From: Liolophura sinensis
Lineage: Eukaryota > Mollusca > Polyplacophora > Chitonida > Chitonidae
Direction of reading: 5' to 3'
NCBI RefSeq assembly: GCF_032854445.1
Contig: NC_088295.1
Span: forward strand, 56,835,249 to 56,899,248
DNA length: 64,000 bases
A program made the translations under genes and the position numbers. Positions 1,167 through 51,900 of this stretch are shown one piece after another. The notes beneath the pieces are model-generated. The model did no database searches and was not told the origin of the DNA. It saw only the letters and a program-made list of their open reading frames with translations. How positions within the stretch are numbered: the stretch's first letter is position 1; every line of letters begins with the position of its first letter.

Positions 1167-4100
1167 GAGTTGAGTCCAAGCTCCACCGATGCCATAAACA
1201 TTTTGAAATGAGACTCTGGTAGGACAACAAACTTCTCCGGGTGGACCTCCATCAGGAATGAGACCAACTTAAAATAACTCAAGCACAAAGTCGGGAACTG
1301 GAAAATAATATGTTGACATAAACACTCCAGCATTTCAACTATTTAGACATAAAAGATTCGCAGGCCCGCAGGAGATATCAATAGTTAAAGTACATTGTGA
1401 GGAAACAATCTCACAAACCAGGATCCATGTACATATGCATATATGTATATATATATATATATATAACCCTTTCCATTGAGTTACTCAGAAACTTGATAAA
1501 ACAGGATATTTTCACCTTTAATAATTTTACGCTGGAGTTTCAAGTTCTGACATTACATCATCTGTGTGACATGCTTGCTGACATGCAAATTCTCTAAAAA
1601 AAAAACATTTCAGGTTATAAAATTCATCGATGACAGATAATATTTTCATACTGTGTATACCAGCCCATGTTAAAATGCATTGATTTGCCCCCAACGTGTC
1701 ACAAAGGGATGTCACAGGGTTGTCGTAATCTTGAAAATTCCTTACTTATCCAGTGAAAAACCTGACAATCTGTAATGTACCTGTACTCACCCTTAGTAAA
1801 TCAGCATTCATGACGGGTATGAGAATGTTCAGGCCATACAGTATCACATCAGACACCTCTATCTTCTCTCCTGGTGAGGCATCTTCTGTTAGACACAATC
1901 AATATGCAGTCTTAAGAGTAATACCCTGGTGTGGATAACCCTATGTCACAGAGGCCCCCTGGTATATACATGTATATTAGGTCCACCCCTAGGCCACAGA
2001 GGCCCCCTGGTATATCCATGTATATTAGGTGCACACCTAGGCCACAGAGGCCCCCTGGTATATACATGTATATTAGGTCCACCCCTAGGCCACAGAGCCC
2101 CCCTGGTATATCCATGTATATTAGGTGCACTCCCAGGCCACAGAGGCCCTCTGGTATATACATGTATATTAGGTGTATCCCTAGGCCATGGTGGCCCCCT
2201 GGTATATACATATAAATTAGGTGCGCTTCTTTTCCACAGAGGCCCCCTGGTACATCTATGTATATTAGATGCACTCCTAGGTCACAGAGACCCTCGGTAT
2301 ATACATGTATATTAGGTGTACTCCTAGGCCACAGAGGCCCCCTGGTATACACATGTATATTAGGTGCACTCCTAGGCCATGGTGGCCCCCTGGTATATAC
2401 ATATAAATTAGGTGCGCTTCTTTTCCACTGAGGCCCCCTGGTATATCTATGTATATTAGATGCACTCCTAGGTCAAAGAGGCCCTCGGTATATACATGTA
2501 TATTAGGTGTTCTCCTAGGCCACAGAGGCCCCCTGGTATACACATGTATATTAGGTGCACACCTAGGCCACAGAGGCCCCCTGGTATATCCATGTATATT
2601 AGGTGCACACCTAGGCCACAGAGGCCCCCTGGTATATACATGGATATTAGGTGCACTCCTAGGCCACAGAGGCCCCCTGGTATATCCAGGTATATTAGGT
2701 GCACACCTAGGCCACAGAGGCCCCCTGGTATATCCATGTATATTAGGTGCACTCCTCGGCCACAGAGGCCCCCCTGGTATATACATGTATATTAGGTGCA
2801 CACCTAGGCCACAGAGGCCCCCTGGTATACACATGTATATTAGGTGCACTCCTAGGCCACAGAGGCCCCCTGGTATATCCAGGTATATTTATTTATTTAT
2901 TTATTTGATTGGTGTTTTACGCCGTACTCAAGAATATTTCAATTATATGACAGCGGTCAGCATTATGGTGGGTGGAAACCGGGCACAGCCCGGGGGAAAC
3001 CCACAACCATCCGCAGGTTGCTGTCAGACCTTCCCACTTACAGCCAGAGAGGAAGCCAGCATGAGCCAGACTTGAACTCACAACGACCGCATTGGTGAGA
3101 GACTCCTGGGTCATTACGCTGCGCTAGCACGCTAGCCAACTGAGCCACAGAGGCCCCCTCCAGGTATATTAGGTGCACTCCCAGGCCATAGAGGCCCCCT
3201 GGTATATCCATGTATATTAGGTGCATTCCTACCCCACAGAGGCCCCCTGTTATATACATGTATATTAGGTGCACACCTAGGCCACAGAGGCCCCGTGGTA
3301 TATACATGTATATTAGGTGCACTCCTAGGCCACAGAGGCCCCCAGTTATATCCATGTATATTAGGTGCACTCCTAGGCCACAGAGGCCCCCTGGTATATA
3401 CATGTATATTAGGTGCATTCCTAGGCCACAGAGGCCCCCTGGTATATCTATGTATATTGGGTGCACACCTAGGCCACAGAGGCCCCCTGGTATATACATG
3501 TATATGAGGTGCTCAGCTTTTGCAGTCAATGGTATATTTGACTACATGCTATAATACTAAGCCCTGATAAACATGATTTACCACATGAACATGTATACAC
3601 TCATATTCCAGGCAATGTTACTTTCTCTATTTTCTTACTTATCTGATTGGTGTTTATTAATGCCACAGTCAAGAATTTTTTCACTTTTACAAATGGTGGT
3701 CAGATATGGAGGAAATGTAGCTTCTCTCTGGGTAAAAATCACAAATCTTTGAGTACTTTGGAATTGAAGAGGATTGAAAACTAAAGATGTTTTGATGGCG
3801 TCCTCACCTTCTCCAAAATCCACAAAATCCTTGGAGAGGAGATTTGTGAGGATTTCTGTGACGAGGAGGATGTCCTGAAATTTATCCTCCTCTTCTTCCG
3901 CAGCATTGACGGCTGTTTTATGACCTGGAGGATGAACAAGTGCAAATCAAGATTCAATATTATTCTTTTAAGGATTAGTTTATTTCATCTAATGTTTGCT
4001 ATGTAAAAATGCACTTTCAGAAGCACATAAAGCCCTGAAAATGGTACTATTGGTCCCAACACTTTAATTTTATGATAAGAAATCAATGATAAATCAAACT

Positions 4101-14400: not shown

Positions 14401-17400
14401 TGATGTAAGTGGGAAGGTCTGTCAGCAACCTGCTGATGGTCCTGGATTTCCCCCGAGCTCTGCCTGGTTTCCACTCACCATAATGCTGGCCGCCATTGTA
14501 TAAGTGAAATATTCTTGAGTATGGCGTAAAACATCAATCAAATAAATAAATAAATTTAAATTTGATTTAGAAAAAAAAAACTGCATTGCTGGGTTTGTCA
14601 ACTCAAGGCTTCACGAAAAGTATGATTCTATCAGTCTACACAAAATAATGCCTTCAAAATTTCTCGAATAAACGCCTTGTAAACAAGCAAAAAAAAGTTG
14701 AAGAATTACAGTATATAAAAATTATGACCAGTAAACATTCTGCACTTGGTCTACATGTACCCGGCCAAAACATAGCATCTCCTGTTGCACTGATTCTTAC
14801 AGACCATACACACAAACCTGATATAAGCACCAGCCAATGCAGGTCTTCATTCAGAGTGTTGATTATCGTCATGTCCACGTGCTCTTGACCATTGGCCAGT
14901 CTGCCATGGTGTTGTTGTAAACGCTGCAACTGACCATGCAGCCGATGGACGCGGTCCTCAAGAAGTCTTCAGGAGTCAAAGGTAAGAGAGAATGTAGGAG
15001 TTGAGTCTGAACAGATTGTATCGTTAGATGGTTGATTCTGACTTACCTGTAAGCTTAGGGTTGCTTTGAACAGCAAAACAACTACATTAAACAGCTGACA
15101 ATGATATAAACAAGACTTCATACCTGGCTAATATTGAGATGGAGTCACAGCCTGCCCAAACTGTCCCACATTACACAGTTGATCATCACTCAAGACTTCA
15201 TACCTGGCTAATATTGAGACTGAGTGGTCAGTCACAGCCCACTCAAACTGTCCCACATTACCAAGTTGATCATAACTCAAGACTTCACACCTGGCTAATA
15301 TTGAGACAGAGTGGTCAGTCACAGTCCGCCCAAACTGTCCCACATTACCAAGGTGATCATCACTCAAGACTTCGTACCTGGCTAATATTGAGACAGAGTG
15401 CATGGTCACAGTCTGCCCAAACTGTCCCACATTACCAAGTTGATCATCACTCAAGACTTCATACCTGGCTAATATTGAGACAGAGTGGATGGTCACAGTC
15501 TGCCCAAACTGTCCCACATTACACAGTTGATCATAACTCAAGACTTCATACCTGGCTAATATTGAGACAGATTGGATGGTCACAGTCTGCCCAAACTGTC
15601 CCACATTACACAGTTGATCATAACTCAAGACTTCATACCTGGCTAATATTGAGACAGAGTGCATGGTCACAGTCTGCCCAAACTGTCCCACATTACCAAA
15701 GTGATCATCACTCAAGACTTCATACCTGGCTAATATTGAGACAGAGTGGTCAGTCACAGCCCACTCAAACTGTCCCACATTACACAGTTGATCATAACTC
15801 AAGACTTCATACCTGGCTAATATTGAGACAGAGTGGTTAGTCACAGCCCACTCAAACTGTCCCACATTACACAGTTGATCATAACTCAAGACTTCATACC
15901 TGGCTAATATTGAGATGGAGTCACAGTCTGCCCAAACTGTCCAACATTACACAGTTGATCATCACTCAAGACTTCATACCTGGCTAATATTGAGATGGAG
16001 ACACAGCCTGCCCAAACTGTCCCACATTACACAGTTGATCATAACTCAAGACTTCATACCTGGCTAATATTGAGACAGAGTGGATGGTCACAGTCTGCCC
16101 AAACTGTCCCACATTACACAGTTGATCATAACTCAAGACTTCATACCTGGCTAATATTGAGACAGAGTGGATGGTCACAGTCTGCCCAAACTGTCCCACA
16201 TTACACAGTTGATCATCACTCAAGACTTCATACCTGGCTAATATTGAGACAGAGTGGTAAGTCACAGCCCACCCAAACTGTCCCACATTACCAAGTTGAT
16301 CATAACTCAAGACTTCATACCTGGCTAATATTGAGACAGAGTGGTCAGTCACAGCCCACTCAAACTGTCCCACATTACACAGTTGATCATCACTCAAGAC
16401 TTCATACCTGGCTAATATTGAGACAGAGTGGATGGTCACAGTCTGCCCAAACTGTCCCACATTACACAAGTGATCATCACTCAAGACTTCATACCTGGCT
16501 AATATTGAGACAGAGTGGTCAGTCACAGCCCACTCAAACTGTCCCACATTACCAAGTTGATCATCACTCAAGACTTCATACCTGGCTAATATTGAGACAG
16601 AGTGCATGGTCACAGTCTGCCCAAACTGTCCCATATTACACAGTTGATCATAACTCAAGACTTCATACCTGGCTAATATTGAGACAGATTGGATGGTCAC
16701 AGTCTGCCCAAACTGTCCCACATTACACAGTTGATCATCACTCAAGACTTCATACCTGGCTAATATTGAGACAGAGTTATCAGTCACAGCCCACCCAAGC
16801 AGTCTCACATTACCATGTTGATCATAACTCAAGACTTCATACCTGGCTAATATTGAGACAGAGTGATCAGTCACAGCCCACCCAAGCAGTCTCACATTAC
16901 CATGTTGATCATCACTCAAGACTTCATACCTGGCTAATATTGAGACAGAGTGGATGGTCACAGTCTGCCCAAACTGTCCCACATTACACAGTTGATCATA
17001 ACTCAAGACTTCATACCTGGCTAATATTGAGACAGAGTGGTCAGTCACAGCCCACTCAAACTGTCCCACATTACACAGTTGATCATAAGTCAAGACTTCA
17101 TACCTGGCTAATATTGAGACAGAGTGGTCAGTCACAGCCCGCCCAAACAGTCCCACACTACACAGTTGATCACTGAACTTTTCTCGATCATCTTCCTCCA
17201 GTTCATTAATCTCCTCATCCTCCGCATCAGTACCAGAGGTCAGCTGTAACAGAAAAGCCAAATACCCTGAAGCACTAAGCCTCACAGAGCTACAAGTACA
17301 GGGGGTCAGTTCCTATTGCCATGCTTAAAAATTCTATCTTTTGCGAAAATCTACCCTCTCCGAAAAAAAGGGTAAGCCAGTAGGGAACTGGCTTTTTCTT

Positions 17401-20400
17401 TTTTTCGGAAGAGTCCGATGGGTTATGCATAATGAATCAAGTTTTAATGATAATCTGACATAGTGCTGTTCTGTTCTCCCTGACATCAGACTGTGATAAC
17501 ACAACACAGATCAAAGTTGACCTGTGTCTGATAACCTGCCTCATGTGCCTGATAAACCAACTGAGAAAAGCATTGAAATAGCAAGAACCAACATTTGACA
17601 AGACAGCAAAATTGGACTTGTGTACATGTAGTCATAGACTTGTGTTGTTTTAGTAGTCGACTGTCATCCTGGTAAAACATTGTCACTGCCGCTCTGGTTG
17701 TACTCTCTATGCTGGACATTTAAGTCTTTTGACATTACATTACAAGGGCCTCCATGGCTCGATTGGTTAGCGCGCTAGTGCAGCGTAATGATCCAGGAGT
17801 CTCTCACCAATGCGGTCGATGTGAGTTCAAGTCCAGCTCATGCTGGCTTCCTCTCCGGCCGTATGTGGGAAGGTCTGCCAGCAACCTGCGGATGGTCGTG
17901 GGTTTCCCCTGGGCTCTGCCCGGTATCCTCCCACCATAATGCTGGTCGCCGTTGTATAAGTGAAACATTCTTGAGTACGGTAAAACACCAATCAAATAAA
18001 TAAACTACATTACATCTGTTTACTTGCAAGCTCCCACCTCATTTGCATACCTGATTGCGCACCCCCTCTGGAGCACTGAGATGGCACTGTAGATAGCTGT
18101 CAAACATGCTCTTGACACAGGGTGAGGTGAAGTCAGGAGACAGACTGGTGAGGTCTGACAAGAGATGCATCCAGGACTCCAGGATCTTCTCATACGCTTC
18201 CATGTAGATTGTATTGTCTCTGTGCATCTGTAATAACATACACAGCACATGCAGCTGATCCTCAGCTTGTACAACTTATCCTCAGCCTGTACCACTGATT
18301 CTCAGCTTGTACCACTGATCCTCAGCTTGTACAACTGATTCTCAGCTTGTTCCACTGATCCTCAGCTTGTACCACTGATCCTCAGCTTGTATAACTGATC
18401 CTCAGCTTGTTCCACTGATCCTCAGCTTGTACCACTGATCCTCAGCTTGTACAACTGATCCTCAGCTTGTATAACTGATCCTCAGCTTGTACAACTGAAC
18501 CTCAGCTTGTACAACTGATCCTCTGGTTGTACAACTGAACCTCAGCTTGTACAACTGATCCTCAGCTTGTACAACTGATCCTCAGCTTGTACAACTGATA
18601 ATAGATGTTTACACTAAATCAACATTCTTAATATACCCAGATGCATCAACAATAATTTTAACACATTCTAGCTTTTCTATATCATTCAATTTTAATTTTC
18701 TCTGTACTCTTCATAAATTATCATTTATGCAAATGTATGACTCTATTATCACGCCAGTAAGTGGATTTTGGTCTGTTGGTCTACCAAATAAATAAATTGT
18801 AAACAGACTCTTAACTGTACTATGAAATAACGTGAGGTTATTTGACTTGCTGGATAGTTACCAAACCTTCAAGGTTTGGCAAAACTAAACTTGTCCTAGC
18901 TATTTTTGCACTGGATAAACATGTATTTGCATAAGCATTCTTTAGCCATGGATAAAGCGTTACCTTGGCATGATCCAAAACCCGAGAAAGTGTCAAACTG
19001 ACTCCTGGGGTATAACTTTTCCAAAACAATAAAATCACTTCAAAACAATACTACCATCTTTCTCACACAGCAATTCCACAACATTGGCCCCTGACATAAA
19101 ATACATTTTTAGGACATTTCCCACAGAGGGTCTTAAGAATTGACTTTATCAAGCCCTGATGTTGCAATAACAGGACTGCACTGAAAGAATGGGTTATATT
19201 TTCAAACTTTCTTCGTGTGGTCATTTCCATATTTCCAATTCATCAAGTCTCACTTTCAATCTAACACAGTTACCATTTGAAGAAAAAAAAATTTTCCGAG
19301 CCTTCATTTCTACCATTACAATGCACCCTCCCATATCCAAGGTCGTTGTTATGACAACTCACAGCTTCCTCCTGTGCTGCATGTCGCCCCAGGGTACAGG
19401 TCAACTGGGTCATGTGACGAATGTATGTTTCCATGACCTCTGGGGGCAAGGCCAGCCAGCAGCGGGGAGGGAACATAACCACCAGGTTCTTGCACGCTGT
19501 TGAGATTCCCAGGGACTCGTAATCGTGTAGTTCAATGCTGAGAAAAAACAGAACAATTTTGAACAGAGTTCTTATGTCAATTTTTTTTCTTCTAAGGCAA
19601 ATCAACCGTCAAATAAAACGAGAAGAATCAGAGAACAAAATAAGTCCAAAGTACAGGATTGAGGATAGAGCAGGTACGATTGAACAAGACATTATGATTC
19701 ATATTTATTTGAATGCAATTTTACACCTTACTCCAGAATATTTCACTTATGCAACGGTGGCCAGCATTCATGGCACTATGGTAGGAGGAAACCGAGGAGC
19801 TCGACCAAGAGGAAACATTCCACAGGTTGCTGGCAGACATTCCCACATATGCCTGGAGAGGAGGCCAGGATGAGCTGGCATTATGGTAGGAGGAAACCGA
19901 GGAGCTCGACCAGGTGGAAACATTCCATAGGTTGCTGGCAGACATTCCCAAGTATGCCTGGAGAGGAGGCCAGCATGAGCTGGCATTATGGTAGGAGGAA
20001 ACCGAGGAGCTCGACCAGGAGGAAACATTTCACAGGTTGCCGGCAGACATTCCCACATATGCCTGGAGAGGAGGCCAGCATGAGCTGGACTCACAGCGAT
20101 TGCAGTGGTAAGAGGCCCCACCCCTACCCTCTTATGTAGAAGTAAGGAGTATTAACACACACAGACACATATACCAGGTAGTTCAGACCTGATCACAGTG
20201 TAATATTTACACCCACGAAAATTTAATAAATCCAAAATTTGTCAAATTTGGTAAAAATGAACAAAATCAAGCAAATGGACCTGAAAAATCAACGACATGA
20301 TAACATTAGTAGTAACACAATGCATACAAAATTTTATCAGCTTTACATAATTTTCTTGAGATTTTTACCCCATGCACCAACTAACTGACACAGCCACAGA

Positions 20401-31848: not shown

Positions 31849-31969
31849 CAACTTCAACGCATTCTGTACTCTGGATGAACTCAGTCCTTCCGAAAACAGA
31901 GTATATTCCCAACCTTCCCGTCCGTACTTGGACAGAAATATACAAGAATGGTCCTATTAACGTACTGTA

Positions 31970-32130
31970 TGTATGTATTTATTTATTTACTTATTTGATT
32001 GGTGTTTTACGCCGTACTCAGAAATATTTCACTTATACGATGGCGGCCAGCATAATGGTGAGAGGAAACCCTTCGAAGCGCGGGGGAAACCCACAATCAT
32101 CCGCAGGTTGCTGCCAGACCGTCCCACGTA
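31970..32130 (-). mobile_element. V-SINE part, unit 1
   Basis: Tail and core are present (TTGATTGGTGTTTTACGCCG through CCGCAGGTTGCTGCCAGACC). Related pieces occupy 35515-35650 and 39010-39150 in units 2 and 3, so the insertion predates the duplications. Confidence 0.8.
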
Positions 32131-32781
32131 CGATGTACTCTATTAACGTTATCTCTAATAGCATGTTAGCGCAATTGTAACCATACAGGTCTTCCATAAA
32201 TGTATTCTGGCTTAAAGGATCACCCGTGCATGATGATGTATCAACTAAGGCCCATCCTAGAAGACGTCGGAAAGGTTATCCAGAGTGACATTGACCTTGA
32301 TGTTGAACATATTCTGATCCAACTTTCGCTAATTTGTCACGTAAATCTGCCGCGCTGCAGTAATTTCATTGACACTATACATGTGGTTTCGTCTACTAAT
32401 AAACGTTATAGGTTTCGTCCACTCATAAATCTCATGCGTTTCCTCCACTCCTTAATCTCACAATCGTGGCATACAAGTAAAATAATCTATTGTACGACAT
32501 GTATAATATGCCAAAGGAATAAATAAATAAACAAATCGATCAATAAAAAAGTTAATTTTAAATTCCATTTATTCTACTTAAAATGGTGTACATCGCATAT
32601 GAGACTGGTACCATTGTGTTTCCGGTAATGTTTTAGCTGTTTCTTCTGTTTTAGCGATTTTGTTGATTTTGTGAAAATACTGTTAAATTTAAGAGAATAG
32701 AAATGTGTTCAAGGCTTACAGAAATTACCACTAAACAGTCATTTTAGATATCAGCTGTATCAAAGCGTGGAGAGGTTATGG

Positions 32782-34830
32782 CTAATCCAGGTCACGCCTG
32801 AGTTTCTCAACGACTAATTTTCCGTTGATGACTTTGAATGTCTGACTGAAGTCTCCATGTCCAAAGGCTGGATGAGGCTGTGAGTTCCCTGAAACACAAG
32901 TCATACATAATGTTACAAGCTCTCCTGTCACACATGACTTCAGATGTGTAATACAATTTGTGTTTGATATGCAAATGATTATTAACCAAGTTAAATTGGG
33001 ACATTACTATTTCTGTCAGATCTTGTTGAGTTTTGTTTTTCATACATAACAGGAATTCCAGCCTAAATGGTTAACACAAAAGCAGGAAACCTTTGGCTTT
33101 ACCTTCTGCTAAGTTCTTGTTTTCCTGTTTAGGTTTCAGCCGTTGTGTGGAATTCTTTTTCCTGTGGCCAAATCGACGTCTTCCTTCTGCAATCAAATAC
33201 ACGAAGATTTTTAAGTTACTTGTAAACTTTAACAAATTACAATCCACTTAAACAACGAAGTTCTAATTAACACAACCAACCTTGAATCCGAATGAACATA
33301 TTCAGCACAAACAGCAGAAACAACAGATAACGATTTACAAGTGGTATTAATCACAAATGTAAGGAGTATTAGAGTTTTTCTCATCAATGCAACCTGCACA
33401 GGAAAGAAAAAAGCAGACAAATAAAGTCTATACAAAATAACTATTGATGCATCGTTAGAAATCAGAAATAGGAACTTACTGGCCAAAGCCTTCTGTACAT
33501 CCTTAATACTGTAGACGTAATGAGTGTTCACCCTTTTCTTCTTGCCTAGAAAGATAAATATTTGAGGATTAAGTCCAAAATCACACTGGCTAGATTTGCA
33601 CGTTATACACACCGAAATGGTAAACAGTTATTTCAGTCAAGTTCCAGACAATGAGGATTTAACACTTTTGTTGTCTCTGTCTTGTGTGTTCACATCGAAT
33701 ATTTTGGACATTTCCAATAAAGTTAACGGACAGCAGCAATCAACACTAACCCCTGAGAACAACCATGACAAACAAAGGAAGTATTGGGATCCATGAGCCC
33801 AGATAGAAAAAGAAGTGTGGTCTGTGAAGAATTTCTCTGATCGTCATGTCCCGGATGTGGATGGAGGGCAAGGTATCAGTCGTCCGCCAGGTGGCCACGA
33901 GGAAATTGCCGGCATTTTCTAGGTCATCAGCAATACTGTCTGCCGGTTTGATGACACTTATAAGATTGCCGAAGGCGAAGTCAAAGCCCTGTAATTGACA
34001 ATTTTGTATCCTTTTATGGATAGCCTACCTCCAACAGTCTTTTTACGACACATTTAATTGTTACAAATCTATCAGAGTATATATATATGGTCTCTAATTT
34101 CTATTAGTATTAATTTATAGGAAAACATTATTGATTATTACAGAACAATCCCAATCTAAAGTACAAATACAAAACAATTAAGGAAAGTACTAAAATCAAC
34201 ATGTTATGGTTCACTTACGTGGTAATATTTATGGAAATGTTAAGCAGTATAAGCTTACGTAAGTTATGTCTTCGGTCAGCTGGTCAATAGTAACCCATAT
34301 GACCCTGGGGTCCAAGTCAGTCACCCGTGGGGTCTTGTATTCTAGCCATAGAGAGTTTCCATCAGACTCCTGTGTAGGCCGACATGAGCAAATGTCATCA
34401 AAGTTTTGTTCAGTCCCAACATCGAGTGGAGAGAAAAAGTAACCCATCCATTTCACAATACTGCTTGTGGACAAGGCCGTGACGTGTGTGTAACATGACA
34501 TTATGAAAAGCAAATATATTCACGTACAAAGTAAAGGATTCTCTAATTTAAATTAAGTCGTAAAGATCTAGAATTTGAACTATTAACATTTTTATTTCAG
34601 CACAGTGTACGAGTAAAGCGATCTACTGTTTACACGTGCGGCTCTGTGTGTGATTTAACAGTAAACTATCAAGTGATGTAACGTTCTTACCCGTCCTCCT
34701 GATGCCAAAGCTGTCCAAATGTCACAAGTCCTGTGGATGTGACGGCTGAAGTGTGAGGGTCTGGTGGGACCCAGCCATTGATAGCCAGAGCCAAACAAAC
34801 GGCTGAGACCGAGACGATACTGAACAGCAT
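32782..34830 (-). CDS. Unrecognised single-pass membrane protein, tandem copy 1
   Basis: Six exons: 34691-34830, 34259-34460, 33751-33988, 33480-33545, 33103-33186, 32782-32888. They total 837 nt, 278 aa, with all phases consistent (2, 0, 1, 1, 1). The N-terminus MLFSIVSVSAVCLALAINGW looks like a signal peptide. A ~150-residue ectodomain follows, with only two cysteines seen (DICSCRPTQ). The membrane segment is FFFYLGSWIPILPLFVMVVL, and a ~90-residue basic tail starts GKKKRVNTHYVYSIKDV and ends EKLRRDLD. Exon 3's donor is GTTAGTG in all copies. I do not recognise the family. Type I topology is inferred from the hydrophobic segments. The next two copies follow in the same orientation, and the lectin receptor gene lies further right on the opposite strand. 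Confidence 0.82.
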
Positions 34831-34981
34831 CGTGATCCCCTCCTGTACGGTCAAAACTAAGTCAAGAATAAACTTGCAAAAAACCTTCCTCAGCTGATAA
34901 ATCGAACGAAAAAGCCGATCAAGCCGTACGATCGGTTGTAGGATGAAAACCACAACAGTTGGTCTCTGACGTTGTCGTTTG

Positions 34982-35056
34982 TGACGTCAAAGTGACCTTT
35001 TCGAACAAAGTGTCATCGCTTAACGCGTGACTTATGCCCCTTATTTGGTGACGTCA
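34982..35056 (-). promoter_or_regulatory. Pair of CRE palindromes upstream of copy 1
   Basis: TGACGTCA occurs at 34982-34989 and 35049-35056, about 150 and 220 bp upstream of the ATG at 34830. The same pair and spacing occur in the other two units. Confidence 0.6.
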
Positions 35057-36304
35057 CAGTGGGAATGTCAAAATATGACACAGTGTATAACTTGAGTTGG
35101 AAAGTCACACTTTCGTGTACGTGAACTACACAACGTGCCAGCATTACATTAGACTAGTGTCTGACTGAACTCTAACGCGGTGTTGTCCATGATTATAAGC
35201 TAACTAAAAATGTAACCTCCATGTTATAAGTGAAAAATTCTAGATGAGGACAAAATTCAAATGTAAGAATAAATCTAAAAGAACACCATTAGACACAGTT
35301 TAATTCCCCATCTGAGATGGAACAATGAGGGGATGAAGCTATTTATGGAAATACATTTGTGTCTTCACCATAGACAAAACATGTTGCCTCAACGTCAACG
35401 CATGCTGTTCTCTTAATGAACTCAGTCCTTACGAAAACAGAGTATGTCCCCTACCTTCCCGTCCGTACTTGGACAGTAATATACATGAAGAGTCCTATTG
35501 ACGTACTGTATGTATTGATGTTTTTATATACTTGATTGGTTTGAATATTTCACTTATACGACGGCGGCCAGCATTATGGTGAGAGGAAACCGGGCAGAGC
35601 GCGGGGGAAACCCACAACCACTTGCAGGTTGCTGACAGACCTGCGCAGGGAGGATGTACTGTATTAACGTTATCTCTAATAGCATGTTAGCATATGTGTA
35701 ACCATATTATAATTAACTACAAAATATGTTACAGGTCTTCCATAAATATATTCTGGCTTAAAGGATCACCACTGCATGATTATGTATCAACTAAAGCCCA
35801 TCCTACAAGACGTCGAAAAGGTTCTCCAGAGTGACTTTGACTTTGATGTTGAATATATTCTAATACATTTTTCCCTAATTTGTCACGTAAATCTGCCACG
35901 CTGCAGTAATATCCTTCACACTATACATGCGCTTTCATCTACTAATAAATCTCATACATTTCCTCCACTCATAAATCTCATACGTTTCCTCCACTCCTAA
36001 ATCTCACAATCGTGGCATACAAGTAAAATAATCTATTGTACAACATGCATAATATACCAAAGGAATAAATAAATAAACAAAAAAAATAAATAAAAAAGGT
36101 AATTTTAAATTCCATTTATTCTACTTAAAATGGTGTACATCGTATATTAGACTGGTACCATTCTGTTTCAGGTAATTTGTTTTTAGCGATTTTGTAAAAA
36201 TGCTGTTAAATTTAAGAGAATAGAAATGTGTTCAAAGATTACAGAAATTACCACTAAACGGTCATTTTAGATATCAGTAATATCAAAGCGTGGAGAGGTT
36301 ATGG

Positions 36305-38328
36305 CTAATCCAGGTCACGCCTGAGTTTCTCAACGACTAATTTGCCGTTGATGATTTTGAATGTCTGATTGAAGTCTCCATGTCCAAAGGCTGGTTGAGG
36401 CTGTGAGTTCCCTGAAACACAAGTCATACATAATGTTATAACAAGCTCTCCTGTAACACATGACTTCAGATGTGTAATACAATTTGTGTTTGATATGCAA
36501 ATGATTATTAACCAAGTTAATTGGGACATTACTATTTCTGTCACATATTGTTGCGTTTTGTTTTTCATAAAGCAGGAAACCTTTGGCTTTACCTTCTGCT
36601 AAGTTCTTGTTTTCCTGTTTAGGTTTCAGCAGTTGTGTGGAAGTCTTTTTCCTGTGGCCAAATCGACGTCTTCCTTCTGCAATCAAATACACGAAGATTT
36701 TTAAGGTACTTGTAAACTTTAACAAATTACAATCCACTTAAACAACGAAGTTCTAATTAACACAACCGAGCTTGAATCCGAATGAACATATTCAGCACAA
36801 ACAGCAGAAACAACAGATAACGATTTACAAGTGGTATTAATCACAAATGTATGGAGTATTAGAGTTTTCTCATAAATGCAACCTGTACAGGAAAGAAAAA
36901 AGCAAAGACAAATGAAGTCTATATAAAAAAAACTATTGATGCATCGTTAGAAATCAGAAATAGGAACTTACTGGCCAGAGCCTTCTGTACATCCTTAATA
37001 CTGTAGACGTAATGAGTGTTCACCCTTTTCGTCTTGCCTAGAAAGATAAATATTTGAGGATTAAGTCCAAAATCACACTGGCTAGATTTGCACGTTATAC
37101 ACACCGAAATGGTAAACAGTTATTTCAATCAGGTTCCAGACTAAAGGCAATGAGGATTTAACACTTTTGTTGTCTCTGTCTTGTTTGTTCACATCGAATG
37201 TTTTGGACATTTCCAATAAAGTTAACGGACAGCAGCAATCAACACTAACCCCTGAGGACAACCATGACAAACAAAGGAAGTATTGGGATCCATGAGCCCA
37301 GATAGAAAAAGAAGTGTGGTCTGTGAAGAATTTCTCTGATCGTCATGTCCCGGATGTGGATGGAGGGCAAGGTATCAGTCGTCAGCCAGGTGGCCACGAG
37401 GAAATTGCCGGCATTTTCTCGGTCATCACCAATACTGTCTGCCGGTTTGATGACACTTATAAGATTGCCGAAGGCGAAGTCAAAGCCCTGTAATTGACAA
37501 TTTTGTATCCTTTTATGGATAGCCTACCTCCAAAAGTGTTTATACGACACATTTAATTCTTACAAATCTATCAGAGTATATATATATGGTCTCTAATATC
37601 TATTAGTATTAATTTATAGGAAAAAATTATTGATTATTACAGAACAATCCCAATCTAAAGAACAAATACAAAACAATTAACGAAAGTACTAAAATCAACA
37701 TGTTATGGTTCACTTACGTGGTAACATTTTTGGAAATGTTAAGGAGTATAAGCTTACGTCAGTTATGTCTTCGGTCAGCTGGTCAATAGTAACCCATATG
37801 ACCCCGGGGTCCAAGTCAGTCACCCGTGGGGTCCTGTATTCTAGCCATAGAGAGTTTCCGTCAGAATCCTGTGTAGGCCGACATGAGCAAATGTCATCAA
37901 AGTTTTGTTCAGTCCCAACATCGAGTGGAGAGAAAAAGTAACCCATCCATTTCACAATACTACTTGTGGACAAGGCCGTGACGTGTCTGTAACATGACAT
38001 TATGAAAAGCAAATACATTCGCATACAAAGTAAAGGATTCTCTAATTTAACTTAAGTCCTAAAGATCTAGAATTTGAACTATAACATTTTAATTTCAGCA
38101 CAGTCTATGAGTAAAGCCATCTACTGTTTACACGTGCGGCTCTGTGTGTGATTTAACAGTAAACTATCAAGTGATGTAATGTTCTTACCCGTCCTCCTGA
38201 TGCCAAAGCTGTCCAAATGTCACAAGTCCTGTGGATGTGACGACTGAAGTGTGAGGGTCTGGTGGGACCCAGCCATTGATAGCCAGAGCCAAACAAACGG
38301 CTGAGACCGAGACGATACTGAACAGCAT
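36305..38328 (-). CDS. Unrecognised single-pass membrane protein, tandem copy 2
   Basis: Exons 38189-38328, 37758-37959, 37250-37487, 36972-37037, 36593-36676 and 36305-36411 have lengths identical to copy 1 (140, 202, 238, 66, 84, 107) and give a 278-aa product. Differences are substitutions, for example GKTKRV for GKKKRV at the start of the tail and a TAG instead of CAG acceptor at exon 2. Preservation of all six exon lengths and splice sites suggests the copy is functional. Family unknown; predicted type I membrane protein as in copy 1. Confidence 0.82.
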
Positions 38329-38478
38329 CGTTGTCCCCTCCTGTACGTTCAAAACTAAGTCAAGGGTAAACTTGCAAAATCCTTCCTAAGCTGACAAATC
38401 GAAAGAAAAAGCCGATCAAGCCGTACAATCGGTTGTAGGATGAAAACCACAACAGTTGGTCTCTGACGTTGTCGTTTG

Positions 38479-38553
38479 TGACGTCAACGTGACCTTTTCG
38501 AACAAAGTGTCATCGCTTAACGCGTGACTTATGACCTCAATTTTGTGACGTCA
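38479..38553 (-). promoter_or_regulatory. Pair of CRE palindromes upstream of copy 2
   Basis: TGACGTCA occurs at 38479-38486 and 38546-38553, at positions equivalent to those in copy 1 although the DNA between them has diverged. Confidence 0.6.
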
Positions 38554-39762
38554 CAGTGGGAATGTCAAAATATGACACAGTGTATAACGTAAGTTGGAAA
38601 GTCATACTTTCGTGTACGTGAACTACCCAACGTGCCACCATTACATTAGACTAGTATATGACTGAACTCTAACGCGACGTTGCCCATAATTATAAGCTAA
38701 CTAAAAACTTTAACTTCCATGTTATAAGTGAAAAATTCTAGATTAGAACAAAATTCAAATGTAAGAATAAATCTAAAAGAACACCATTAGACACAGTTTA
38801 ATTCGCCATCTGAGATGGAACAATGAGAGGATGAAGCTATTTATGGAAATACATTTGTGTCTTCACCATAGACAAAACATGTTGCCTCAACTTCAACGCA
38901 TTCTGTTCTCTGGATGAGCTGAGTCTTTGCAAAAACAGAGTATGTCCCCTACCTTCCCGTCCCTACTTGGACAGTAATATACATGAAGAGTCCTATTAAC
39001 GTACTGTATGTATTGATTTTTTTATTTATTTCACTGGTTTGAATATTTCACTTATACGACGGCGGCCAGCATTATGGTGAGAGGAAACCGGGCAGAGCGC
39101 GGGGGAAACCCACAACCACTTGCAGGTTGCTGACAGACCTTCAAACGTCCGATGTACTGTATTAACGTTATCTCTAATAACAATTATTAACAATAATAAT
39201 TAAGTACAAAATATGTTACAGGTCTTCCATAAATGTATTCTGGCTTCAAGGATCACCCGTGCATGATGATATATCAACTAAAGCGCATCCTACAAGACGT
39301 CGGAAAGGTTCTCCAGAGTGACATTGACCTTGATGTTGAATATATTCTAATCCATTTTTCCCTAATTTGTCACGTAAATCTGCCACGCTGCAGTAATATC
39401 CTTCACACTATACACGCGCTTTCATCTACTAATAAATCTCATACGTTTCCTCCACTCATAAATCTCATACGTTTCCTCCACTCCAAAATCTCACAATCGT
39501 GGCATACAAGTAAAATAATCTATTGTAAAACAAGCATACTATGCCAAAGGAATAAATAAATAAACAAATTAAAAAATAAAAATAGTAATTTTAAATTCCA
39601 TTTATTCCACTTAAAATGGTGTACATGGCATGTTAGACTGGTACCATTCTGTTTCAGGTAATTTGTTTTAGCGATTTTAGAGAATAGAAAGGTGTTCAAA
39701 GGTTACAGAAATTACCACTAAACGGTCACTTTAGATATCAGTTGTATCAAAGCGTGGAGAGG

Positions 39763-41863
39763 TTATGGCTGATCCAGGTCACGCCTGAGTTTCTGAACGA
39801 CTAATTTGCCGTTGATGATTTTGAAAGTCTGATTGAAGTCTCCATGTCCAAAGGCTGGTTGAGGCTGTGAGTTCCCTGAAACACAAGTCATACATAATGT
39901 TATAACAAACTCTCCTGTAACACATGACTTGTAACCGATGTCTAATACAATTTGTGTATGATATGCAAATGATTATTAACCAAGTTAATTGGGACATTAC
40001 TATTTCTGTCACATATTGTTGTGTTTTGTTTTTCATACATAACAGGAATTCCAGCCTAAATGGTTAACACAAAAGCAGGAAACCTTTGGCTTTACCTTCT
40101 GCTAAGTTCTTGTTTTCCTGTTTAGGCTTCAGCAGTTGTGTGGAAGTCTTTTTCCTGTGGCCAAATCGACGTCTTCCTTCTGCAATCAAATACACGAAGA
40201 TTTTTAAGTTACTTGTAAATTTTAACAAATTACAATCCACTTAAACAACGAAGTTCTAATTAACACAACCGAGCTTGAATCCGAATGAACATATTCAGCA
40301 CAAACAGCAGAAACAACCAGATAACGATTTACAAGTGGTATTTATCACAAATGTAAGGAGTATTAAAGTTTGTCTCATAAATGCAACCTGTACAGGAAAG
40401 AAAAAAAGCAAAAACAAATGAAGTCTATATAAAAAAACTACTGATGCATCGTTAGAAATCAGAAATAGGAACTTACTGGCCAAAGCCTTCTGTACATCCT
40501 TAATACTGTAGACGTAATGAGTGTTCACCCTTTTCGTCTTGCCTAGAAAGATAAATATTTGAGGATTAAGTCCAAAATCACACTGGCTAGATTTGTACGT
40601 TATACACACCGAAATGGTAAACAGTTATTTTGGTCAAGTTCCAGACTAAAGGCAATGAGGATTTAATACTTTTGTTGTCTCTGTCTTGTGTGTTCACATC
40701 GAATGTTTTGGACATTTCCAATAAAGTTAACGGACAGCAGCAATCAACACTAACCTCTGAGAACAACCATGACAAACAAAGGAAGTATTGGGATCCATGA
40801 GCCCAGATAGAAAAAGAAGTGTGGTCTGTGAAGAGTTTCTCTGATCGTCGTGTCCCGCTTGTGGATGGAGGGCAAGGTATCAGTCGTCCTCCAGGTGGCC
40901 ACGAGGAAATTGCCGGCATTTTCTCGGTCATCACCAATACTGTCTGCCGGTTTGATGACACTTATAAGATTGCCGAAGGCGAAGTCAAAGCCCTGTAATT
41001 GACAATTTTGTATCCTTTTATGGATAGCCTGCCTCCAACAGTCTTTTTACGACACATTTAATTGTTACAAATCTATCAGAGTATATATATATATGGTCTA
41101 TTATATCTATTAGTATTAATTTATAGGAAAACATTATTGATTATTACAGAACAATCCTAATCTAAAGTACAAATACAAAACAATTAACGAAAGTACTAAA
41201 ATCAACATGTTATGGTTCACATACTCGGTAACATTTATAGAAATGTTAAGGAGTATAAGCTTACGTCAGTTATGTCTTCTTTCAGCTGGTCAATAGTAAC
41301 CCATATGACCCCGGGGTCCAAGTCAGTCACCCGTGGGGTCCTGTATTCTAGCCATAGAGAGTTTCCGTCAGACTCCTGTGTAGGCCGACATGAGCAAATG
41401 TCCTCAAAATTTTGTTCAGTCACAACATCGAGTGGAGAGAGAAAGTAACCCAACCATTTCACAATACTGCCTGTGGACAAGGCCGTGACGTGTCTGTAAC
41501 ATGGCATGTTATTATGAAAAGCAAATACAGTTTCGATCTACATGTATGCAAGCCCTGTTCTAACTAAAAGATTCTCTAATTAAACTTAAGTCCTAAAGAT
41601 CTGGAATTTGAACTATAACATTTTAATTTCAGCACAGTGTGCGAGTAAAGCGATCTACTATTTACACTTGCAGCTCTGTGTGTGATGTAACAGTTAAACT
41701 ATCAAGTGAAGTAACGTTCTTACCCGTCCTCCTGATGCCAACGCTGTCCAAATGTCACAAGTCCTGTGGATGTGACGGCTGAAGTGTGAGGGTCTGGTGG
41801 GACCCAGCCATTGATAGCCAGAGCCAAACAAACGGCTGAGACCGAGACGATACTGAACAGCAT
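39763..41863 (-). CDS. Unrecognised single-pass membrane protein, tandem copy 3
   Basis: Exons 41724-41863, 41265-41466, 40755-40992, 40477-40542, 40096-40179 and 39763-39875. The stop codon used by copies 1 and 2 (GAT TAG) is GAT CAG here, so the protein reads on to ...RRDLDQP and stops at TAA, giving 280 aa. The first five exon lengths equal those of the other copies. The exon 2 acceptor GGCAG|T keeps the frame; an alternative AAG three bases upstream, available in copies 1 and 2, is AGG here. This supports the YAG as the true site. Function unknown. Confidence 0.8.
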
Positions 41864-42015
41864 CGTTGTCCCCTCCTATACGGTTTAAACTAAATCAAGA
41901 ATACACTTGGAAAAAACCTTCCTAAGCCGATAAAATCGAAAGAAAAAGCCGATCAAGCCGTACAATCGGTTGTAGGATGAAAACCACAACAGTTGGTCTC
42001 TGACGTTGTTGTCTA

Positions 42016-42090
42016 TGACGTCAACGTGACCTTTTCGAACAAAGTGTCATCGCTTAGCGCGTGACTTATGACCTCAGTTTTGTGACGTCA
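42016..42090 (-). promoter_or_regulatory. Pair of CRE palindromes upstream of copy 3
   Basis: TGACGTCA occurs at 42016-42023 and 42083-42090, the third instance of the pair. Confidence 0.6.
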
Positions 42091-42604
42091 CAGTGGGAAT
42101 ATCAAAATATGACACAGTGTATAACACGACGCGACGTTGTCCATGATTATAAGCTAACTAAAAATTGACCGCCACCTTATAAGTGGAAAATTCTAGACTA
42201 GAACAAAATTCAAATGTAAGAATAAATCAAAAAGAATGCTACTAGACAGTTAAAATCCTCATCTGCATGAGACGGAAAAATCAGGAGATGAAGCTATGTA
42301 TGGAAATAAATTTGTGTCTTCACCATAGACAAAGCATGTTGGAATGTTTAATATGATGTGATGTATTATTCACGAAAATTATGAAGAGCACCCTGCTATA
42401 TAAATGACCGTAGAGGGGCACCGGAAAATCAAATTGAAAGCCTTCCGTAAGTCCAACGGTATGGAATCCATTTGTTCCTCGCGATCAAATGCATGCTTTC
42501 GCTAGTGCATCTATACACGGGTAAGCAAGTAAATCTGTCACAATCTATGCACGTGGACAAACCGTGCTGATATAATTTATTTATTTGGCTTAACGTCATA
42601 TTGT

Positions 42605-48900: not shown

Positions 48901-51900
48901 ATTTTACATTCCAAGTCTCCTGAATTCCTGTCTCCCGACGCGGACAGCTTTACCTTTGACATCGTTTACTCTTGATGTAATCAAAACAACAAGAACACGT
49001 ATATATTTGTGTATTTTGTAATATTTTCTCCAATGCTCTGTACACATGCAGGCAAAATTAGTGACGCCTGTCACGGGTCGTCAAGCCTCAACCAAACTTA
49101 CAACGTCTTGAAGTGCGAGGCCGGCTCTCAGATTTGCATCACCGAGGTCAGAGTCTACACCAAGCAAGGATGTCAACCTGTACAATATTTTACTCCCGCA
49201 CTCCCAGAATGTTGTCGCCATGACCCTAACGAATGCAGTGAGGTCATCAGTTCTCCAGGCTTACAAAATATCTGTGATGGACGTAACCAATGCAGGGTGC
49301 AGTCGCCGTCTTCAAAAGTCATCATAACCCCGTGTCCTAGAGGCTTCAATATACAGAGCAGTGTCCGATCAATTAGTTACAGGTGCAGTTCTAGTGGTAA
49401 GTACACGGACGTGTCTTTATACAACGTCTGAGCTGACCGTAGTAATATACAGAGGTCCTTGTGCTGTTCTTTTGGGATTTCGGATGAATCCTTGATAAAC
49501 AATAAGAAATGGCTCCCTCGTACGTAGAAGGGGATGTCTTTCTCCACAAAATGAGGTTAATAAATGATCTTTTTTGTAAGAACTAAATTAATGAAGACTT
49601 AATGATCACTATAAGGTGTACAGAAAAATAAAATATTTTGAACAACATTTTCAACCGNNNNNNNNNNNNNNNNNNNNNNNNNNNNNNNNNNNNNNNNNNN
49701 NNNNNNNNNNNNNNNNNNNNNNNNNNNNNNNNNNNNNNNNNNNNNNNNNNNNNNNNNNNNNNNNNNNNNNNNNNNNNNNNNNNNNNNNNNNNNNNNNNNN
49801 NNNNNNNNNNNNNNNNNNNNNNNNNNNNNNNNNNNNNNNNNNNNNNNNNNNNNNNNNGAACAACATTTTCAACCGAGTAAAGCGCTTTTCACACGTTAGA
49901 CTCTACGGGGATCTTTTCTGATCATATATTGAGACCAGTGATATTAAACTATATAGGTGTTTGCCACTTATCACACACATACCGCTATAGGTTTCTACGT
50001 GTAAAATGCATGTGTGCATGAATGTATTCGTCAAACGGACCTGTAAGGGAACTATTTTAAGCTAGAAGTATAGATAATACGTTACTGACACCTACTGAGT
50101 CAGAATAGATCATCTTGAAATTGAATGTTTTAGAAGCAATTTAATCGGGTCAGAAAATTTAAAAATAAATAAATATAAACATAACTTGATATGTTTTCCC
50201 TTTCCATTTTCCAGTGGTCTTTCATCTGATGTATGCTTCATTTCAGTGCTTTCTTTGTTTTCATGCGCCATATCCTTCTCAATGTATTTAGTTGTGACCC
50301 TTCCATTCGATCAGCTATTTCGGTCATTTAATTTAAGGATCGTGTTCAGAAACTGCTTCAGAGACTACAACGACAACAACAACAACAAGATCACCGAACA
50401 GGAGTTCAACAACGATTGCGGCACCAAAAGAAACCCCCAGGAATAACCCCGCTGATAAGGCAACAACTACAACACAATCAAATGGTAAATCTATGTGGTA
50501 ACTCACATGTAAAGCATTTTTTCGAATTAAAATTTACCAAAGTTTTCACCACTATTTGTCATGTGAGTGTAATTACCTCATGATTATGGATGACGAGGTC
50601 AATAAATGATAACTTTTGTAAGAATTAAAAAATCTGGGATGACTATAAAGTTAATGGAGACCTAAAGACCATCGCAATAAGGACCTAAATAATGTTCGGG
50701 ACAATAGTTCACCTGACTTTCTTTAGATTTTTCCCATAGAATTAGAGGTGTTTGATTATTGGACTAAAGGGTACCTCTACTTTTCTGACCATATACTGGT
50801 ACCACACTAGGCTTTTGCCACTTAACACACAAAGGCTGTTACAGACTTAATATTCTTCATCCAAAACACAGAGCTGTGAATACGTTCGCCGAATGGACCT
50901 TGTAAAGAAGAATTTCAAGCAAACCGAAATATAGATGTGGCTCAACTGGGCGTGAACAGATCGCTGTATAGCCAATGTTTTAGACTAAAACATTTTAATG
51001 GGATGGGAATATCCCCAAAACCCCCACCCCCGCCCTCTAACAAAAGTCTCTCCTCCAGAACTGTATCTTAATGGTCTTCCATCTGTTTTATTTATTTATT
51101 TGATTGGTGTTCACATCGTACTCGAGAATATTTCACTTATACGACGGCTTCCAGCATTGCTATAGGAGGAAACCGAGCAAAGCCTGGGGAAACTCTCGGT
51201 CATCCGCAGGCTGTTGTCAGACCTTCACATCGACCACATTGGGTAAAAGGCTCCTGGGTGATAGTGCCGAGCTGGCACGCTAACCTCGGCATGTAGTCAC
51301 CGCCCCCCCCCCCCCCCCCCCCCCACATCTTGCATCTGGTATATCCTTCAGAATAATCCCCACACAAGATTTTGATCAGTCCATTTCAGCAGTTGTTTTA
51401 TCGTAGATTAAACATTTAATTTAGGTTCAGGTTCAGAAACTAAGCCAGTGACGATAACAACAGCGTCGCCCAGTAAGAATTCAGCAACGATTACGTCATC
51501 GACAGAGACAAGCGGGAACAGGCCTGCTGATACGTCATCCGCTACAACACAAGTGAATGGTAGGTCCATATAACGTTTACGTAAGGTGCAGACTCCATTT
51601 TGCAAAGAAAAACCTGTCGAAGTTTTTGATTTTGTTTGCAAATTAAGTGTGTTTACAACATGGTTTTGGTTTACGACACTAATATGAAATTCAAGATGAT
51701 ATACTATGCTGCATCTTATATATGTGGCAGGCCCTTCCAAACTATGCAATCCTGTGCATAAGAAAAAAACATTTTGGCTTTCTTGGTGTAAAGTATGAGC
51801 CGTAAGTCAGGTCACCGCCCGACGTTATCCTGACATCACAGTCTATAGTTTAAGGTACCTCCATGGTCAAGTAATACAGCATTCAATGTCATGTTCACCT

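Follow-up and report, generated by a model that had tools for sequence, protein, structure and literature searches.

Intron 11 of the exportin-4 gene (XPO4) of the chiton Liolophura sinensis contains, on the minus strand, an array of about 2 kb in which the junction between exon 11 and the intron recurs head to tail, so that the repeat unit spans an exon-intron boundary. We regard this array as a 'mirage' minisatellite that mostly leaves the transcript together with the intron, the mRNA being mainly spliced from 17103 to 14966, and we give this reading a probability of about 0.7 (positions are those of the window, the 64,000-nt stretch of genomic DNA analysed). According to this reading, a tandem duplication would have joined the last 71 nt of exon 11 to the first 13 nt of intron 11 and 3 further nucleotides, and this unit would have been amplified via unequal exchange or slippage to 23 extra copies within a formerly short intron 11 of some 157 nt. 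A good 5' splice site would have travelled with every copy, and in most XPO4 mRNAs the joining of the authentic donor to the acceptor of exon 12 would remove the array as intron. Occasional use of extra donors 1-12 would add steps of 29 amino acids within a helix, and use of extra donors 13-23 would end the frame prematurely and probably expose the transcript to nonsense-mediated decay. Splicing from the authentic donor is favoured because the spacing of 29 amino acids at the exon joint is conserved, an insert would fall within a helix, the changes among the units look neutral, and comparable arrays in amphioxus are reported to be spliced normally.

The host gene had been named XPO4 from the sequence in a preliminary description, and this identification is confirmed: the joined exons match exportin-4 (5dlq_B, a chain that we take to be mouse exportin-4) with E = 3.2e-138. 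Our homologue search yielded 361 proteins among 7999 scored candidates, and among the 120 matches listed the best is that of the gastropod Gigantopelta aegis with 56% identity. In a tree of 29 rows the chiton XPO4 is sister to the sampled cephalopods, gastropods and bivalves (support of the latter without the chiton 93/91). The Liolophura assembly was published as L. japonica, and the species has since been corrected to L. sinensis by its authors (PMC12441733); a partial genome duplication is named for this chiton in PMC12005716.

The array comprises 24 GCCAG/GT junctions (the slash marks the splice boundary), namely the authentic donor of exon 11 and 23 copies, all with a GT donor, and the first intron base lies at 17103, 17016 ... 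15203, 15123. Tandem Repeats Finder (TRF) reports a period of 87, 23.5 copies and 91% matches at a score of 3102, far above chance. The preliminary description of 24 tandem junction copies, each with its own 5' splice site, is thereby corroborated, and the donor sites that it listed are real, but its numbers (17104 ...) denote the last exon base and the intron starts one position lower (17103). Its unit length of 87 bp holds for 20 of the 23 copied units, the other three (units 13, 14 and 23) measuring 80 nt; its division of the unit into about 68 nt of exon and 19 nt of intron we would revise. We read the unit as probably composed of an exon 11 part of 71 nt, an intron 11 part of 13 nt and 3 extra nucleotides (a repeated GAT), because the unique intron sequence past the last copy starts with the same 13 nt that head the units, GTATGAAGTCTTG (15111..15123, minus strand, as all features given here), which also begin intron 11, and then diverges.

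Exon 11 (17104..17243, 140 nt) ends with ...ATATTAGCCAG, ...CAATATTAGCCAG at 17104, and the repeat derives from its last 71 nt. It is followed by a first block of 12 units of 87 nt (16060..17103), which is open in the XPO4 frame, by the 80-nt units 13 and 14 (15900..16059), in which the frame is broken, by a second block of eight 87-nt units (15-22; 15204..15899) and by the last unit of 80 nt (15124..15203). Measured from the authentic donor, intron 11 extends over 2137 nt (14967..17103) to exon 12 (14818..14966), the acceptor of which is cctgaag/ACTTCTTGAG. Splicing from the last donor (15123) to exon 12 leaves an intron of 157 nt, which was probably the size of the whole intron before the array arose. 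The 20 units of 87 nt share a mean identity of 0.913 (range 0.805-1.000), with three of them identical, and are thus homogenised in the manner of a mirage. In its last 68 nt, exon 11 matches the units at 82-94% (mean 0.895, compared to 0.900 among the units themselves), and one site separates the exon copy from every unit.

Splice-site strength was scored with matrices built from 20 of the 21 XPO4 junctions tried (the junction after the sixth exon piece was left out), which are small and specific to a single gene; the exon 11 acceptor, ttacag/CTGACC (17243), was set by hand, the junction script having picked 17219. At intron 11 the authentic 5' splice site, CAG/GTATGA (17098..17106), scores 10.12 and ranks fifth among the 20 XPO4 donors scored. 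Its 9-mer, and consequently its score, is shared by 21 of the 23 extra donors, the two weaker ones being located at 15377 (7.24) and 15290 (9.53), and GT follows CCAG at all 23 copied junctions, so that the splice signal is borne by the unit. Intron 11 contains 22 GTs scoring at least 10.12, of which 21 belong to the array and one is CAGGTAAGT at 15046, compared to one intronic donor at or above the authentic score in the remaining 19 scored introns together. Strong donors of this kind are therefore something that the splicing machinery really faces in this intron, and 'splice-site decoy array', a term used in the preliminary description, is a fair account of the anatomy, with its repeated donors of equal strength. 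As acceptors, the CCAG/GT unit ends reach 0.3-1.5, below 18 of 20 authentic acceptors (leave-one-out, on the small one-gene matrix), and the neighbouring TTAG reaches at most 3.04 (in two units), compared to 4.68 for the acceptor of exon 12; 23% of intronic AGs score at least 0.82. Since the unit ends score low as acceptors and most of their donor scores equal the authentic one, the array appears to multiply good donors, but not good acceptors.

Between the array and exon 12, 80 nt upstream of the latter, lies CAG/GTAAGT (15041-15049, GT at 15046), with 12.99 the highest-scoring intronic GT over the 20 introns scored. This 9-mer occurs twice in the 64-kb window, the present site included, where 0.58 occurrences are expected, and at least two were found in 13 of 100 shuffles. 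A 48-nt cassette exon in the same interval (15094-15047; acceptor 3.29, donor 12.99) would, by our reading, bring an early stop. Folding of 523 nt of RNA from the exon end into the array gave z = -2.2, to which no clear meaning can be attached.

The preliminary description had also stated that the frame stays open from exon 11 through 12 further units, in the phase needed for exon 12, and this is the case: the authentic donor and extra donors 1-12 lead in an open frame into exon 12 with 0-12 units of 29 amino acids, i.e. 12 of the 23 extra donors keep the frame, as in an arrangement of the type discussed below for human IFI6. Its further statement that 80-bp units break the frame is equally correct, as any reading from exon 11 towards donors 13-23 is terminated by a stop codon within unit 13 (zero-based codon index 419). 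The absence of stops from the units of the first block, though correctly described, tells little. The second block is open in the unit frame despite the lack of any in-frame route to it, and one antisense frame of the first block is open throughout (the same antisense frame has one stop in the second block); the open frame is therefore inherited with the unit and not a sign of use. When random 87-mers of the same composition are repeated in tandem, at least one of six frames is open in 73% of cases.

Coding selection on the unit was rejected: in the 20 units of 87 nt (the three 80-nt units being left out of the count) we counted 26 distinct changes, of which 6 are synonymous, 20 are non-synonymous and none creates a stop, a neutral ratio compared to the 61:186:14 possible changes (P = 1.0 for non-synonymous versus synonymous changes, P = 0.24 for the absence of stops). 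Selection for the donor is weakly hinted at by a 19-nt invariant run across the junction (P = 0.028) and by the distribution of the 24 variable columns, 7 of which lie in the 39 nt around the donor (P = 0.057), both values being uncorrected and taking no account of the shared ancestry of the units. Two of the 26 distinct changes fall into the 9 donor columns among the 87, compared to 2.7 expected. A Pfam search with the 442-aa open frame gave one match, Gmad2 (32.5 bits at a cut-off of 25.7, E = 1.1e-7), in which no single stretch passes alone and which we take as a probable by-product of the repeats; Rfam at gathering level gave no match in the window.

At the protein level, the distance from DQL to the LEDRV-like motif across the joint of exons 11 and 12 is exactly 29 residues by pattern in 108 of the 120 homologues listed, and the remaining 12 have no insertion (nine by alignment, three by the printed stretch). 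The product of the authentic donor also has 29 residues here, so that this donor alone yields a protein of the same length as in all 120 listed homologues. AlphaFold2 modelling of the Gigantopelta protein (24 sequences, mean pLDDT 85.1) places the insert site, at about residue 493, inside a predicted helix (484-516), with a pLDDT of 95 in the two ten-residue blocks about it. Two protein searches with the joint of exon 11, unit and exon 12 returned 10 proteins at most 54% identical and none, respectively; as no match was close enough to belong to the species itself, these searches speak neither for nor against isoforms.

The array can be explained in several other ways. On the one hand, it may be leaky, in that U1 binds along it and a considerable fraction of transcripts is spliced from donors 13-23, with a stop and decay as the outcome, or stays unspliced, so that XPO4 output is lowered and copy number tunes its level. 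Such an effect works without any conserved protein product, and it accords with the identity of the authentic 9-mer to that of 21 extra donors, with the single comparable site in the other 19 scored introns together, and with donors 13-23, all of which lead to a stop, the last one, 15123, leaving an intron of 157 nt. However, the donors are preserved without clear excess over expectation, and the amphioxus precedents are reported as normally spliced (PMC3087553, PMC3902484). We consider decoy effects of this kind possible, although clearly less probable than removal of the array with the intron. On the other hand, extra donors 1-12 might yield XPO4 proteins lengthened by one to twelve repeats of 29 aa, the length-variable isoform system proposed in the preliminary description. 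Frame and phase are kept by all 12 donors, and for human IFI6 the literature describes splicing from two downstream repeat units, with three mRNA species as the outcome (PMC4526556). The proposal nevertheless fares poorly: the substitution ratio is neutral, the frame is open by descent, even where it could not be read, the length is the same in 120 of 120 listed homologues, the insert would lie inside a helix of the Gigantopelta model, and exon 11 would lengthen from 140 to 227-1184 nt. By the same model the 29-aa unit, a copy of the exon end, comprises one helix and reaches into the one that follows. An isoform ladder is thus unlikely, and its strict form, in which a single chiton makes XPO4 with 0-12 copies of the unit and the allelic copy number sets the length of the ladder, is a shade more doubtful.

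Two further alternatives carry far less weight. Each CCAG/GT might serve as both acceptor and donor, the units leaving one or several at a time by recursive splicing or as newly born introns; CAG/GT stands at both ends of every unit, several units contain a branch-like motif (CTGAC, CTAAC or CTTAC), and intron gain by AGGT tandem duplication is an established model (PMC3443670). We consider this possibility very improbable, given the low scores of the unit acceptors, which lie below that of the exon 12 acceptor and within reach of many intronic AGs. That the copy number was inflated in assembly is scarcely credible: the published coverage is only 14x, but the HiFi reads average 8,347 bp (PMC11068029) and can span the 2-kb array plus flanks, the differences between units form an irregular pattern, and a DNA search of the assembly gave a single match.

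Some observations also count against splicing mainly from the authentic donor. Among them are the equal scores of 21 of 23 extra donors and the excess of strong intronic donors in intron 11 (22, compared to one in the other 19 scored introns), and a simple proximity rule in splice-site choice, by which donors nearest the next exon are favoured, would point to the donors nearest exon 12. The 19-nt invariant junction run is a weak hint of constraint, and the authors of the amphioxus study see alternative or aberrant transcripts as possible from such sites (PMC3087553).

The closest counterparts of the XPO4 array are the amphioxus 'mirages', tandem repeats across exon-intron boundaries in the globin genes BflGb6 and BflGb9 (the latter duplicating a 3' exon boundary), Adh3 and TnC, for which RT-PCR suggests undisturbed splicing according to PMC3087553; the same source reports length instability and, for Adh3, also somatic instability. 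Undisturbed splicing is also stated for the Adh and TnC mirages in PMC3902484, in which PGBD5 is added. With its boundary-spanning, homogenised units that carry splice signals, the XPO4 array bears the anatomical marks of a mirage, and of an unusually large one. It differs from BflGb6, which has 6 and 3 units in two haplotypes (PMC3087553), in its 23 extra copies, and from the amphioxus mirages in general in that 12 of its extra donors keep the frame. Host phylum, copy number and in-frame geometry are new compared to the described mirages. The titles and abstract openings listed by our literature search mention neither a molluscan exon-boundary minisatellite nor an XPO4 repeat isoform.

In human IFI6 (6-16), likewise, minisatellite units supply splice donors; the unit there measures 12 bp, a length that keeps the frame, in contrast to 87 in XPO4. 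The IFI6 minisatellite is cited as giving multiple, used donors (Turri et al. 1995, via PMC4526556), and by analogy some use of the spare donors of the XPO4 array is conceivable. New introns can be created by AGGT duplications (PMC3443670) and by duplications across an intron-exon boundary (PMC4974935). The XPO4 array resembles such cases, including potato RdRp, in its AGGT per unit and its duplication over a boundary, but by our reading an old intron was lengthened here, and the unit acceptors are weak. The minisatellite start site described for DDX3Y (PMC3039753) was set aside as a phenomenon of another kind.

Minisatellites make up 20% of the XPO4 gene span with the array and, by subtraction, about 13% without it, compared to 6.9% (period at least 10) in the surrounding 264 kb, window included. 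The array is the only one of the gene that overlaps an exon, by 69 bases out of some 3031 in all exons (a total that includes estimated edges), and some others end at a distance of 27 to 54 nt from an exon. Since the gene is dense in minisatellites and a single one overlaps an exon, a chance capture of the junction fits these observations. A 20-bp minisatellite of about 17 copies (18255-18599) ends 27 nt from the acceptor of exon 10 (18227), the lowest-scoring of the 20 acceptors, and a 48-bp minisatellite with a higher-order period of 192 bp (1940-3512) ends 54 nt from an XPO4 exon. Two of 46 TRF arrays in the 264 kb (period at least 20, at least 3 copies) have repeated strong donors, namely the XPO4 array and a 53-bp array of 13.4 copies at L007:9160-9875; the latter repeats CAG/GT, and no exon was recognised by eye in its open frames. 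Elsewhere in the window, a unit of about 3.5 kb is present in three tandem copies (31849-42125), with 93-94% identity along the main stretches but 85-86% at one end, and the flanks of a gap of 200 N (49658-49857) overlap by exactly 18 nt.

Our data suggest that exon-boundary minisatellites, known from amphioxus in the literature surveyed, occur in molluscs too. The XPO4 array provides a natural test of donor choice by the spliceosome, which is presented here with 24 donors that share one 9-mer in 22 cases; as the sequence preceding them is closely similar as well (82-94%), position may decide the choice. If the extra donors are indeed used, copy number would set either the length or the level of a transport receptor.
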